Source of the DNA: Gemmatimonas sp.
Lineage (GTDB): Bacteria; Gemmatimonadota; Gemmatimonadetes; Gemmatimonadales; Gemmatimonadaceae
Reading direction: 5' to 3'
NCBI GenBank assembly: GCA_011390885.1
Contig: JAABRO010000007.1
Coordinates: 1-64,000 of the forward strand
Length of the DNA stretch: 64,000 nucleotides
Position 1 is the stretch's first letter; every line of letters begins with the position of its first letter. Below are positions 2,007 through 56,767 of this stretch, piece by piece. A program made the position numbers and the translations under genes. The notes beneath the pieces were generated by a model. That model was not told the origin of the DNA, made no database searches, and was given only the letters and a program-made list of their open reading frames with translations.

Positions 2007-3031
<1,025 letters not shown>

Positions 3032-3136
3032 CCGGGAAACGATACGCAGTGGGGCGCGTCGGCGGCATCACCGTTCCGAGGAACCGCAACGCCACCGCGA
3101 CGCTTGGAGACAGGAGAACCTCAACCGGTCATACCG

Positions 3137-3718
3137 ATGATCCCTGCGATCATGCCGTTGCTGCTCCTGCTGCTCGGCATCGCCGATGTACGCACTGCGT
3201 CGTTGCCGGCGCAGCCGGTTCCCGTGACGCTGTTCACGTTCGACGGCGCCGACGACGCGGCGTGGGACGTGGTGAACGACGGCGTGATGGGTGGCCGCTC
3301 GGCCGGCTTCGTGAGCGTACAGGACGGCGCGCTGCGGTTCACCGGCACGCTCGTGACGCAGGGCGGCGGCTTCACGTCGGTGCGGGCGGCGCGCGCCGTG
3401 GACCTCACGGGCGAGGCGGGCCTCGAGCTGCGCGTCCGCGGCAGCGGGCGTCAGTTCGAGCTCGAAGTCGACGATGGGCTGCGCAGCTATCGGCGCAGCG
3501 TGTCGCGGCGCGCGCCCTTCGCCACGTCACCGGAATGGACGGTGGTGCGCGTGCCGTTCCGTGCGCTCCGCAGCACCATCTTCGGCCAGCCGGTCAACGC
3601 GCCTCCGCTCGACCTGGCGCGTGTCCGGGGCGTGGGGCTCTACATGGCCGACGGTCAGGACGGACCGTTCCGCCTCGAGGTGGACTACATCCGGTCGTAC
3701 GGCGCAGGCGCCACGTAG
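3137..3718 (+). CDS. CIA30 family protein (secreted)
   Basis: 193-residue protein with a hydrophobic N-terminal segment (signal peptide or anchor, about residues 5-20) and one galactose-binding-like beta-sandwich of the CIA30 family (NADH:ubiquinone oxidoreductase intermediate-associated protein 30). Diagnostic stretches are VNDGVMGGRS near the start and VRGVGLYMADGQDGPF near the end. Mitochondrial CIA30 is a complex I assembly factor; bacterial homologues have no established function, and this exported form is unlikely to do the same job. ATG 3137 gives a clean signal peptide; an AGGAGA sequence lies 19 nt upstream, which is rather far. It stands alone, divergent from the ABC operon. Confidence 0.8.
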   Translation: MIPAIMPLLLLLLGIADVRTASLPAQPVPVTLFTFDGADDAAWDVVNDGVMGGRSAGFVSVQDGALRFTGTLVTQGGGFTSVRAARAVDLTGEAGLELRVRGSGRQFELEVDDGLRSYRRSVSRRAPFATSPEWTVVRVPFRALRSTIFGQPVNAPPLDLARVRGVGLYMADGQDGPFRLEVDYIRSYGAGAT

Positions 3719-3765
3719 CCGGCGGCCAGGAGCCGGCGCGGTGGACCGCGCTCCGGCGTGCGGCG

Positions 3766-4704
3766 TCAGCGAAGGCGACGCGTGTCGGGCCCGGCAACCC
3801 CGGTGAGTGATTCGCTGAGGGACACCAGCCGGGCGCGCGCCGTCGCATCGAGCGCCTGCGGCTCCATCGGCACGATCGGCTGGCCTTCCAGGTAGAAGGC
3901 ACCCGGTTCCAGCGCATCGCGCATGATGAGCCCCATCACGTGATCGCGCCCCTCGGCCACCGTGCTCTCGGGCGGAATCCCGATCCCCTGCACCATGGTG
4001 GTGTTCATGAGCGTGGCCGGGTGCAGCGAGATCATCGTGATCCCCTGTGCGGCGAACGCCGGTGCCAGTTCGATCGTCATGCTCACCTGCGCCAGCTTGC
4101 TCTGGCCGTAGGCGCGGTCGATCGCCGCCTCGTAGGCACCGGGCTTCTCCAGCATCACGTCGTCGAAGTCGATCGGCGCGGCGCTGCCTGAGGCCACGTT
4201 GACCACACGTGACGGCGCGGCCGCCGCGAGGTTTGGCTGCAGCCGGTTCACGAGCACCCAGCCGGCCAGGTAGTTCACGGCGAAGTGCAGCTCATGGCCG
4301 TCCGCGCTGGTGCGACGCGGCTGCGTGCTGAGAAGGCCGATACCGGCGTTGTTCACGAGCAGGTCGAGCGTCGGGTACGCCGCTGCGATCGTGTCGGCGA
4401 AGTCGCGAACGGCTTGCATCGAGGCGAAGTCGGCGGCGATGAAGCGCGCCGATCCCGCGCCGGCAGCCGTGATCTCCGCCACCACGGCGCGACCGCGTTC
4501 CGCGTTTCGTCCGTGCACGATCACGTGCGCGCCCTGCGCCGCGAGGGCGATCGCCAGCTCGCGGCCGAGTCCGTCGGTGGATCCGGTGACCAGTGCGGTC
4601 TTGCCAGCGTACGGGAGCGCCGGTGCCGCACCGCGCGTCTGGCAGGCAGCCGGCAGCACGCACAGGCCGGCAAGCAGGGAGCACAGCATGACGCGAAAAC
4701 GCAT
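3766..4704 (-). CDS. SDR family oxidoreductase with lipoprotein-like signal
   Basis: Short-chain dehydrogenase of about 312 residues: TGSTDGLG cofactor loop, NNAG, a catalytic serine region VASGS and the YGQSK catalytic Tyr/Lys. The internal ATG at 4704 is chosen because GAGGAT sits at proper spacing before it and the encoded N-terminus is a signal peptide ending in a lipobox-like LPAAC. An NAD(P)-dependent enzyme outside the cytoplasm would be odd, because free cofactor is not expected there, so the signal may be an uncleaved anchor. The frame stays open upstream into a truncated NTF2-like coding region (4810-4974), so a 402-residue fusion starting at 4974 is also possible. Confidence 0.82.
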   Translation of the reverse strand: MRFRVMLCSLLAGLCVLPAACQTRGAAPALPYAGKTALVTGSTDGLGRELAIALAAQGAHVIVHGRNAERGRAVVAEITAAGAGSARFIAADFASMQAVRDFADTIAAAYPTLDLLVNNAGIGLLSTQPRRTSADGHELHFAVNYLAGWVLVNRLQPNLAAAAPSRVVNVASGSAAPIDFDDVMLEKPGAYEAAIDRAYGQSKLAQVSMTIELAPAFAAQGITMISLHPATLMNTTMVQGIGIPPESTVAEGRDHVMGLIMRDALEPGAFYLEGQPIVPMEPQALDATARARLVSLSESLTGVAGPDTRRLR

Positions 4705-52931: not shown

Positions 52932-54353
52932 CTACACCAGCGCCAGCGCCATGCCCGCGAAGCCGACCAGCATCACGAGCAGCACCCCCGGCACCGCGAA
53001 GCGCAGCCAGCGCGGAAAGGGCACGCGGGCGGCCAGCAGCATGGCCAGCAGCGCGCCATTGGTGGGCACCACCAGGTCCATGGGCGGTCCACCGGTCTGG
53101 TACGCGAGCACGGCCACTTCGCGCGAGAAGCCGAGCAGGTCGGCGAGCGGGGCCATGATGGGCATGACCAGGGCGGCATGACCGCTGTTCGACGCCACAG
53201 GCAGGTGCAGCAGCGCGTGGATCGGCACCATCAACCCGGCGGCCAGCAGGCCGGGCGCATGCTCGAGCGGCGTGGCCAGCCCGTGCACGATGGTATCGAT
53301 CACCTTCCCATCCTCGAGCACCACCGAGATCGCGCGCGCCACACCCACGAACAGGCCGGCAGAGAGCATGGCGTCCATGCCGCGCAGGTAGGTCACCGTC
53401 GTGCCGCGCACGCCGAGCCTCGCCACGAGCCCGATCGCGAACGCCGCCACGAGGTAGATGGCCGAGAGTTCGTTGAAGCCCCAGTCGAAGCGCAGCACAC
53501 CCACCAGGTAGGGTGCGAAGGGCACGATCGCGAGCAGCAGCAACACAGCGTCGCGGCGCGTCGCTGGTGCCGGGACGGTGACAGGCGTCGCCGCATCGCG
53601 CACGCCCGTGCCTTTCGCATCGTCGTCTCGCGTGGTCACGTCCCGCGATGCCGTCGCCGTCCACACATCATGCCGCAGTTGCGACAGCGTCCACGCGATC
53701 CACACGGAGACCGCCACGACCGTCACCAGCAGGCGCACGCCAGCCCCGGCCGACGCCGGCAGTTCGGCGAACCGATTGGCGATCCCCGACGCGAAGGGAT
53801 TCGTGGGGCCGAACGCCGCGCCCACGATCGCCGCGCCCGCGCTCATCGCGATCGCGGTGACCGGACCGAATCCCAACCCTCGGCTCAGCACGAGCAGCAC
53901 CGGCACGAGCGCGATGATCTCCTCGAACAGGTTCACGAGCGCGCCGAGCGTGGCGAAGGCCAGCGAGATCACCACGATCACGAGGCGCGGACGACGGGTC
54001 CGCCCCACGAGCCCACCCACGAGGCGCCCCAGCGCGCCGGTCTGCTCGAGCAGCACGAACGCCCCGCCGACGAAGAGCACCACCACCACCACGTCGGCAC
54101 CAATCACGATGCCACGCGGCACCGCGAGCACCGCCTGCGCGAGCCCCACGGGCGCGACCTCGACGGGGTGCCACGTGCCGGGCACGACGAGCGCGCGCGA
54201 CGACCCGGGGATCGGGCGACGTTCGTATTCACCCGCCGGCAGCAGCCACGTGAGCAGCGCGGCCACGAGCACACCGCCGAGCAGCAGCACCATCGGGTGC
54301 GGAAAGCGTGACGCCCGCGGCGCGGGGGTGTCCGGCGGCTCGAACTGAGGCAT
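52932..54353 (-). CDS. YfcC-family membrane transporter
   Basis: 473 residues, about 12 membrane helices, with the YfcC/DcuC-type opening (PHPMVLLLGGVLVAALLTWLLP, AGEYERR) and two re-entrant regions (GPTNPFASGIANRF and LPVASNSGHAALVMPIMAPL). The family is related to C4-dicarboxylate and basic-amino-acid carriers. A cytoplasmic loop (about 215-255) is long and charged. It could import products of the neighbouring secreted peptidases; this is inference. The internal ATG at 54353 is used; the longer frame is Arg/Pro-rich and not conserved-looking. Confidence 0.85.
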   Translation of the reverse strand: MPQFEPPDTPAPRASRFPHPMVLLLGGVLVAALLTWLLPAGEYERRPIPGSSRALVVPGTWHPVEVAPVGLAQAVLAVPRGIVIGADVVVVVLFVGGAFVLLEQTGALGRLVGGLVGRTRRPRLVIVVISLAFATLGALVNLFEEIIALVPVLLVLSRGLGFGPVTAIAMSAGAAIVGAAFGPTNPFASGIANRFAELPASAGAGVRLLVTVVAVSVWIAWTLSQLRHDVWTATASRDVTTRDDDAKGTGVRDAATPVTVPAPATRRDAVLLLLAIVPFAPYLVGVLRFDWGFNELSAIYLVAAFAIGLVARLGVRGTTVTYLRGMDAMLSAGLFVGVARAISVVLEDGKVIDTIVHGLATPLEHAPGLLAAGLMVPIHALLHLPVASNSGHAALVMPIMAPLADLLGFSREVAVLAYQTGGPPMDLVVPTNGALLAMLLAARVPFPRWLRFAVPGVLLVMLVGFAGMALALV

Positions 54354-54613
54354 GTCCGGTGTCCGAAAGACGGAGGGACGGCGTCGGGGAGGAGGAGGAC
54401 GCGTGCCAGGGAGGCGGGACCACCCGGACGCCGCGAACTTCGTGCCCTGCGGGATCCTTCGCCAGTGCAAAGGGCGCACGCGGCTCGACGCGCCGCACGC
54501 GTCGAGCGGTCATCGTCCGCCGGACCTCGACTTGTGGCCGGTGCCGGGAGGCGAGAGCTTCGAACGGTCACACTCGGTGGCCCGTACCCCGATGTCGGGA
54601 GGTCGTCCTGCTC

Positions 54614-56767
54614 ATGCGTCCACGCACTCGCCACGCGCCGCCTCACCCGCCGCGCCGCGCGCGACACCGCGCGTCCCTGCAGCCGCTCGCGAATCCGACG
54701 CGTGCGCTCGCCCTGACGTGCACCGCGCTCGCGGCCGCCGCGCTGGCCTGCACCGCGCCCCCGCCGCCACCCGACGCCAGCAGCGCGCGCAACCTGCCGC
54801 TTGCCAGTGCGAGCGACCTGCGCACTGCCGCGGGCACGATGCGAGGCGACACCCTCGTGATCGAACTCGACGTGGTGGACGTGGCCTGGACACCGCGCGC
54901 CGACGACGGCCCGCGCGTGGCGACGCGCATCCTCGTGGAGCGCGGCCGCACGCCCACGGTGCCCGGGCCGCTGATCCGCCTCGCCGTGGGCACGCCGCTG
55001 CGCCTGTCAGTGCGCAACACCACCGGCGAGTTCGTGGAACTCGGCAGCGCGCTCGACTCGGGTACGGTCTTCGGCGTGCAGTCGATCGGCCTGGCGCCGG
55101 GCGCGTCGCACGAGGCGCGATGGACGCCGTCAGTGCCGGTGACCTCGGCCTATGCGCTGAGCGGCGAGAGTGGACTGCCGGGCGCGTCCGCTGGCGCGAT
55201 CGTGGTCGATCCGGGTGGCACGGCGCCACACCCCGACGAACGCATCCTGCTGCTCTCGGCGTGGGGCTCGCGCGCCGAACCCACCTCGCTCGACCCGGCC
55301 TTCTCGTGGAAGATGCTCGTGAACGGACGCTCGTGGCCGTACACCGAGCGCTTCGACTTCACTGTGGGGGACACGGTGCGCTGGCGCGTGATCAACGCCG
55401 GCACCGAGTGGCATCCGATGCACCTGCACGGCTTCTACTTCCGCGTCACCTCGGCCGGCGACCTGCGCGCCGACACGCTGTACGACCCCGCCACGCGCCC
55501 CGAGGTGGTCACGCACGCGCTGGCGCCCAACGGTGCGATGACGCTCGTGTGGACGCCGAGCACGCCGGGCAACTGGTTGTTCCACTGTCACCTCTTGCGG
55601 CACTCCGGCGAAACGCAGCGCTTCGTGGCCGATGCGACGCATGACGCCCACGGCGGCGATGATGCCGTGCCGGCGATGGACGACGCCATGGCGGGGATGA
55701 TCACCGGCATCACCGTCCATCCGCCGGCGGACTACGTCGCCTCGGCGTTCGTGCCGGCACGCCGTCTCGACCTCTGGACGGCACGGACCGCCAACGCGTA
55801 CGGTGACGCGCCGCGACTCGGCTTCGCGCTGCAGCAGGACGACGCGCCACCGCGCGCGGACTCAGCACCCACGCTCAGCAGCCTGCTCGTGCTCACACAG
55901 CACGAGCCCGTCGAGATCGCGGTGCACAACCGCCTCGACACCCCGCTCGCGCTGCACTGGCACGGCCTCGAACTCGAGAGCACCTATGACGGCGTCGGCC
56001 ACTGGAGCGGCATGCCCGGCATGCCGCGACCGCCGATTCCCGCCGGCGACTCGCTCTCGGTGCATCTCGCGCCACCGCGCGCGGGCACGTTCATCTACCA
56101 CACGCATGGCGAGGAGGGCTTCCAGCTCTCGCAAGGACTGTACGGTCCGCTGCTCGTGCTGCCGCCCGGCGAGCCGTACGACCCCGAACGCGATCGCGTC
56201 TACGTGCTGGGCCAGGGCGGTGCCGTGCGCGATGCGGATCCAGCGGTGAACGGCCTGCGCGAGCCGCCGCCGGAACGCTTCGCGTCGGGCACCACATATC
56301 GGTTGCGCTTCATCCAGATCGGTGCGGACGAGGCGAAGGTCGTCTCGCTGTTGCACGACGGCGAACCCGTCACCTGGCGCGCGCTCGCCAAGGACGGGGC
56401 CGATCTGCCTGTCGCCATGCAGGTGGACCGCGCCGCCACGTTCCGCGCCGACGTGGGGGAAACGCTCGACTTCGCCTGGACGCCGCCAGCCGACGGTGCG
56501 TACCAGCTCGTGGTGCGCACGCTCAACTACCCGATCGCCTTCGACCGCGGCCCGACGCAGACGATCGCCTTCGCGGTCGGCGATGTGAGCGAGTCCACCA
56601 TCGCCGAGGCGCACGAAGGCTTCGATGGCGTGATGTCGCTCGAGACGATCGACACGCTCATGCGCCTCGCGTTCATCGCCGCGCTGCTGCTCCTGCTCAC
56701 GGCCGTGACGTGGATCGGCCTGCGGCTCGCGCGCCGATTCACCTGGGGACGAATGTCTCGCGCATGA
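54614..56767 (+). CDS. Four-domain multicopper oxidase with permuted copper motifs
   Basis: 717 residues, lipoprotein-like signal (LAAAALACT) and a C-terminal membrane helix (about 690-708). Four cupredoxin-like domains are visible. Domain 1 has no copper ligands. Domain 2 has HPMHLHG (H267, H270, H272) and HCHLLRH (H324-C325-H326, H330), which belong to the last domain of ordinary enzymes. Domain 3 has LHWHG (H448, H450) and YHTHGEEGF (H496, H498), which belong to the first domain. Domain 4 has no ligands. All eight trinuclear histidines and the type 1 Cys are thus present, but in the order III-IV-I-II. The axial type 1 position is Gln335 rather than Met/Leu. Oxidase of metals or phenols, probably extracytoplasmic and membrane-tethered. 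The last 29 bp overlap the convergent gene. Confidence 0.88.
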   Translation: MRPRTRHAPPHPPRRARHRASLQPLANPTRALALTCTALAAAALACTAPPPPPDASSARNLPLASASDLRTAAGTMRGDTLVIELDVVDVAWTPRADDGPRVATRILVERGRTPTVPGPLIRLAVGTPLRLSVRNTTGEFVELGSALDSGTVFGVQSIGLAPGASHEARWTPSVPVTSAYALSGESGLPGASAGAIVVDPGGTAPHPDERILLLSAWGSRAEPTSLDPAFSWKMLVNGRSWPYTERFDFTVGDTVRWRVINAGTEWHPMHLHGFYFRVTSAGDLRADTLYDPATRPEVVTHALAPNGAMTLVWTPSTPGNWLFHCHLLRHSGETQRFVADATHDAHGGDDAVPAMDDAMAGMITGITVHPPADYVASAFVPARRLDLWTARTANAYGDAPRLGFALQQDDAPPRADSAPTLSSLLVLTQHEPVEIAVHNRLDTPLALHWHGLELESTYDGVGHWSGMPGMPRPPIPAGDSLSVHLAPPRAGTFIYHTHGEEGFQLSQGLYGPLLVLPPGEPYDPERDRVYVLGQGGAVRDADPAVNGLREPPPERFASGTTYRLRFIQIGADEAKVVSLLHDGEPVTWRALAKDGADLPVAMQVDRAATFRADVGETLDFAWTPPADGAYQLVVRTLNYPIAFDRGPTQTIAFAVGDVSESTIAEAHEGFDGVMSLETIDTLMRLAFIAALLLLLTAVTWIGLRLARRFTWGRMSRA

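Follow-up and report, generated by a model that had tools for sequence, protein, structure and literature searches.

The window analysed here, a stretch of 64,000 nucleotides of a Gemmatimonas sp. contig, encodes a multicopper oxidase (MCO) in which the copper-binding motifs follow each other in the order III-IV-I-II. This raises the question of how such a chain is built and where it could assemble a complete copper site. The gene, which has a GGAGG sequence approximately 11 bases 5' of its ATG, contains the full ligand set of the MCO superfamily, consisting of four motifs with ten histidines and one cysteine for the type 1, type 2 and type 3 coppers. The positions of these and other features are collected in Table 1, where the putative assignment of individual residues to the three types of copper follows from analogy with known MCOs. 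In Pfam searches PF07731 and PF07732 both score above cut-off, and an N-terminal-type Cu-oxidase_3 domain (residues 425–518, E 1.2e-19) lies downstream of a C-terminal-type Cu-oxidase_2 domain (residues 229–332, E 7.9e-23). An annotation based on the two Pfam domains conceals the permuted motif order. The first-pass annotation of this DNA had described four cupredoxin domains, D1 to D4, with ligands in D2 and D3 only, and the motifs and domain profiles confirm this description.

Table 1. Positions of the oxidase gene, its parts and the divergent carrier gene in the window.
Feature	Positions	Strand	Basis
DcuC/YfcC-type carrier, divergent from oxidase	52935..54479	-	Pfam DcuC E 8.6e-58
Whole gene, four-domain multicopper oxidase	54614..56767	+	uninterrupted frame ATG to stop, 717 aa
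Export signal, hydrophobic ~28-45, weak lipobox-like ALAC to Cys46	54614..54751	+	model helix 28-45
D1 (residues 68-203), HxHG-type cupredoxin, His ligands lost	54815..55222	+	hhalign vs two-domain domain 1, E 3.8e-17
D2 (residues 206-372), putative type 1 site and half trinuclear site	55229..55729	+	two-domain domain 2, E 1.7e-27; Cu-oxidase_2
HPMHLHG: putative H267 (type 1), H270 (type 2), H272 (type 3)	55412..55432	+	His invariant 103/103
HCHLLRH: putative H324 and H326 (type 3), C325 and H330 (type 1)	55583..55603	+	invariant 103/103
Loop (residues 331-358), His330 to Met359, holds Gln335 (55616-55618)	55604..55687	+	His/Met/Asp-rich
Met359, probable axial ligand of type 1 copper	55688..55690	+	Met 102/103
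D3 (residues 380-518), putative other trinuclear half	55751..56167	+	two-domain domain 1, E 7.9e-30; Cu-oxidase_3
HWHG (within LHWHG): putative H448 (type 2), H450 (type 3)	55955..55966	+	invariant 103/103
Asp459, presumed CueO Asp112 equivalent (catalytic acid)	55988..55990	+	Asp 103/103, then invariant Gly
HTH (within YHTH): putative H496, H498 (type 3)	56099..56107	+	invariant 103/103
D4 (residues 525-650), HPxHxH/HCH-type cupredoxin, ligands all lost	56186..56563	+	two-domain domain 2, E 1.6e-12
C-terminal membrane helix (residues 676-697), basic tail	56639..56704	+	model helix

The order HPxHxH, HCH, HWHG, HxH is not peculiar to the window protein, but is kept at all 104 loci with a readable frame. 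The ten histidines and the cysteine are invariant in the 103 aligned sequences, and so are Glu453, Asp459 and Gly460. Asp459 has the same spacing from the HWHG motif as Asp112 in CueO, of which we take it to be the equivalent. Because the order is identical in 104 loci and the ligands are invariant in 103 sequences, neither chance nor a frameshift fusion can account for it. A separate second gene joined by a frameshift, which had been named as the finding that would overturn the permuted order, is ruled out by the single frame and by the retention of the order in the 104 loci. Since these loci belong to independent genomes and phyla, the probability that two genes were fused artefactually, through frameshift or assembly error, is negligible. 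The loss of ligands in two of the four domains would also agree with a non-enzymatic copper-binding or structural protein that carries relict motifs; this is hardly credible in view of the invariance of 11 core copper ligands and the catalytic aspartate in 103 sequences.

Full-length homologues at 31–49% identity to the window protein were retrieved in a search of 60 relatives, and the 103 aligned sequences are mostly ∼31–49% identical to it; most relatives have lengths of ∼600–700 residues. Of 200 genomes sampled from the phylum, 68 have a match at E ≤ 1e-40, and some of them carry as many as five copies; across the GTDB species genomes, over 500 matching stretches were obtained. The 80 best-scoring ones are distributed over Gemmatimonadota, Acidobacteriota, Bacteroidota, Balneolota, Pseudomonadota and Rokubacteria, where the phylum assignment depends on binning, nearly all of the 80 being MAG contigs. 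The motif order, for which a mapping of the phylogenetic range had been proposed at the outset, is kept by the aligned relatives from all six of these groups. In the family tree the phyla are clustered yet interleaved, and the four-domain layout is widespread among some soil and water bacteria.

A few relatives show individual features. One genome of 7.5 Mb (G020) contains five copies of the four-domain oxidase, and in the cultured Gemmatirosa kalamazoonensis a copy is located on a 1.1-Mb replicon (NZ_CP007129, 418958–420655). Four loci (L002, L032, L033 and L110) encode a C-terminal extension of 100–200 residues beyond D4; the tails of L032 and L033 are similar to each other, and the two tails that were searched, of L002 and L032, match no Pfam family. 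Another four loci (L026, L027, L028 and L030) contain MCOs of canonical order in an open frame of 726–769 residues, in which the first HWHG is found only at residue ∼315–355, leaving a long N-terminal region ahead of domain 1.

To establish the relationship of the four domains, the family alignment was split by domain and the profiles were compared with those of two- and three-domain oxidases of the same bacteria (hhalign). D1-D2 is collinear with both domains of a two-domain oxidase (E 3.4e-39), as is D3-D4 (E 1.8e-35), and the D1-D2 half and the D3-D4 half align with each other in normal order (E 3.6e-20). The two-domain halves recognized in the first-pass annotation are thus the correct unit, each of them matching a two-domain oxidase. 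The two explanations that it offered for the motif order do not agree with the profiles: halves joined the other way round are contradicted by the collinear alignment of either half (E 3e-39 and 2e-35) to a conventional two-domain oxidase, and a circular permutation by the normal order within the halves and by D1, which is a degenerate HxHG-type domain placed before D2. Because both halves align in normal order with two-domain oxidases, the comparison argues for a tandem duplication rather than a permutation. By sequence, the chain is a tandem (D1-D2)(D3-D4) of type-B two-domain units with complementary loss of ligands, in D1 of the first unit and in D4 of the second.

A three-domain laccase that has been circularly permuted or half-swapped would likewise display the motif order III-IV-I-II. 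Such an origin would also agree with the resemblance of D4 to the middle domain of three-domain oxidases and with the alignment of D3-D4 to laccase domains 1-2. However, a degenerate HxHG-type D1 ahead of D2 is unexpected in a permuted three-domain enzyme, the first half can be aligned with a two-domain enzyme from end to end without any change of order, and the match of D4 to the three-domain middle domain (E 2e-8) is weaker than that to two-domain domain 2 (E 1.6e-12). On the basis of the type of D1 and the collinear halves this origin was rejected as very unlikely. In the trimers of type B two-domain oxidases, neighbouring monomers build the trinuclear site together, one contributing its domain 1 and the other its domain 2 (PMC13151041). 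By analogy, the D2/D3 junction of the tandem would be the inter-protomer contact of these trimers, made covalent inside one chain.

Structural models were obtained with AlphaFold2 for the full chain, from 24 sequences (pLDDT 81, pTM 0.82), and for a D2-D3 fragment, from 95 sequences (pLDDT 90, pTM 0.88). The best solved matches of the full-chain model in Foldseek are factors V/VIII, ceruloplasmin and MnxG, with query TM-scores of ∼0.5–0.55, whereas three-domain laccases reach a TM-score of 0.3, far behind ceruloplasmin and MnxG. The D2-D3 fragment superimposes on ceruloplasmin with query TM-scores of 0.63–0.65 and rmsd values of 4.7–6.3, but shows no match with two-domain and three-domain chains (TM ∼0.3, rmsd 13–18). 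Because lone two-domain chains hold the odd-to-even contact only, the predicted packing of D2 and D3 is most likely that of an even-to-odd pair, which is the kind of interface where the trinuclear site is located. The structure prediction proposed earlier as a check thus places D2 and D3 in the expected arrangement, at the level of a predicted fold, and may be biased toward known MCOs, on which the predictor was trained. A search of the model against a viral fold library (BFVD) gives weak matches only; the matches A0A3G5AHN9 and A0A3G5A9G4 are giant-virus proteins (Satyrvirus, Hyperionvirus) of 863–1102 residues that are annotated as copper oxidases.

That the fold search ranks ceruloplasmin-type proteins and MnxG (9bxa_A) first is also compatible with another history for an enzyme of the same function, in which a six-domain ancestor of the MnxG, algal Fox1 or ceruloplasmin type was shortened to four domains at its C-terminal end. 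In bacteria and algae, oxidases with six domains already use a trinuclear site located between their second and third domains (PMC3600357). MnxG has motifs C and D at its N-terminal end and motifs A and B at its C-terminal end (PMC3618234), an order identical to that of the window protein, which is consequently not new as such. In addition, ceruloplasmin is the second-best PDB sequence match of the D2-D3 profile (E 1.9e-36). Against a truncation, both halves give strong matches to two-domain oxidases encoded in the same genomes, MnxG is absent among the best 60 PDB sequences with either profile, and among the relatives there is none above ∼850 residues with additional cupredoxin domains. Fusion of two two-domain genes and truncation of a six-domain protein both predict the data; the sequence evidence leans towards fusion, and we regard truncation as rather unlikely.

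It seems likely, with good confidence, that the window protein is an exported, O2-reducing MCO that represents a covalent dimer of a type-B oxidase, with one complete site at D2/D3. For this covalent dimer, to which motif order, conservation, unit homology and predicted packing all point, the copper assignment, the activity and the substrate can be proposed as follows. Two protomers would have merged, unit 1 being without first-domain ligands and unit 2 without second-domain ligands, and exactly one complete site would result from the ligand loss in D1 and D4. Electrons would enter at the type 1 copper of D2, coordinated by H267, C325, H330 and the axial M359, and would reach the trinuclear cluster through the H324-C325-H326 bridge; in this cluster, H270 and H448 would bind the type 2 copper and H272, H324, H326, H450, H496 and H498 the type 3 coppers. 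O2 would be reduced to water there, the protons being donated by D459. D1 and D4 would have a structural role, and the flexible loop rich in His, Met and Asp would probably be situated on the substrate side. Among possible substrates, we tentatively place a metal ion (Cu+, Fe2+ or Mn2+) first and phenols second.

The axial ligand of the type 1 copper is probably Met359, as suggested by its conservation and by the profile alignment. In the 103 aligned sequences it is followed by an invariant Gly361, and the family motif MAGM/LVxGI aligns on the MFGMVTAL segment of two-domain oxidases, with the gap falling ahead of it; the first Met of the two-domain MFGM motif is the axial ligand in known small-laccase structures. 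Gln335, to which the first-pass annotation had assigned this role, was rejected, since position 335 is a glutamine in only 15 of the 103 sequences. Residue 362 (Met here, Leu in 99 of the 103) was also considered because G361-M362 resembles the GMM of CueO, but the alignment with two-domain oxidases favours Met359. A lower-potential copper, which had been deduced from Gln335, may still be correct on other grounds, because the potential is lower when the axial residue is Met than when it is Leu or Phe. A type B enzyme that has a Met ligand is listed with 537 mV (PMC13151041). The loop between His330 and Met359 varies in length from 12 to 48 residues across the family and is enriched in His (2.8×), Met (2.3×) and Asp (1.7×); in the model its residues 339–355 have pLDDT values below 50 and are predicted to be disordered. 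This composition at most hints that metal is bound close to the type 1 site, and the enrichment in His and Asp could be nothing unusual in an exported loop that is disordered.

A hydrophobic N-terminal segment is present in 100 of 103 relatives, together with a lipobox-like motif in 21. The C-terminal membrane helix, described previously as a tether, is real in the window copy (residues ∼676–697) but is no family trait, a hydrophobic C-terminal segment being found in none of the 102 other aligned relatives; the tether is thus local to the window copy. No neighbouring genes are conserved across the family (∼80 loci), the largest clusters consisting of spurious GC-rich open reading frames, so that the gene context gives no pointer to the substrate; genes resembling MnxE or MnxF were not noticed among the neighbours. 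In L033, a close relative, the oxidase gene is directly preceded on the same strand by a carrier gene (2422–3940) that is 57% identical to that of the window, and within this sub-clade only, the DcuC/YfcC-type carrier is a possible functional partner of the oxidase.

Multidomain oxidase classes are named for two, three and six domains only (PMC3600357; glossary of PMC13151041, 2026). A search limited largely to openly accessible literature yielded no four-domain or naturally permuted oxidase; circular permutation is on record for an engineered CueO (PMC6497955). On balance we are inclined, with some reserve, to regard the four-domain oxidases as a fourth MCO class, 4dMCO, which would be a type-B covalent dimer that retains the inter-protomer site only, with an open two-thirds ring, an exposed type 1 site and a new metal-binding loop as its guard. 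In 4dMCO the type 1 site would be accessible because the ring is open, whereas in the trimers it faces a closed tunnel. In schemes of MCO evolution, trimers of two-domain chains precede the chains with three and six domains. If the proposal is correct, the four-domain class would be a natural, living intermediate of the supposed path from two-domain trimers to six-domain proteins. The open ring would also allow a test of a single inter-protomer site without a third protomer, and of the effect of the opened tunnel on substrate access.

Comparison with known systems shows that three-domain laccases, CueO and CotA have the ligand motifs and the Asp after HWHG in common with the window protein, and that domains 1-2 of the laccases correspond to D3-D4. 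Unlike the window protein, with its four domains and reversed order, they have the order HxHG, HxH, HPxHxH, HCH and a ligand-free middle domain, and their packing does not match that of D2-D3 (TM 0.3). Ceruloplasmin and hephaestin, which are among the best structural matches, likewise consist of two-domain units arranged in tandem, in which part of the ligands have been lost, but ceruloplasmin differs in having six domains, three type 1 sites and a trinuclear site between domains 1 and 6. The six-domain MCOs, comprising MnxG, related bacterial proteins and algal Fox1, share the motif order C-D-A-B with the window protein, and in both cases the ligands of the trinuclear and type 1 sites belong to domains 2/3. 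MnxG (9bxa_A) has a fold similar to that of the window model (query TM 0.55, 12% identity), whereas the window protein, whose only putative type 1 site and whose trinuclear ligands are likewise confined to domains 2 and 3, has four cupredoxin domains rather than six. Type B two-domain MCOs are defined by two domains per chain with a full ligand set in each chain, while the window protein has two units per chain, its ligands being split over D2 and D3 and lost from D1 and D4, which would leave one site instead of three; its family also has an insert of 12–48 residues ahead of the axial Met. Nevertheless, the type B enzymes, or small laccases (SLAC, CjMCO), align collinearly with each half of the window protein and, as predicted for it, have a second-domain type 1 copper with an axial Met and a trinuclear site at the contact between units; in the window protein the ligands lie in the two domains that meet at this junction.
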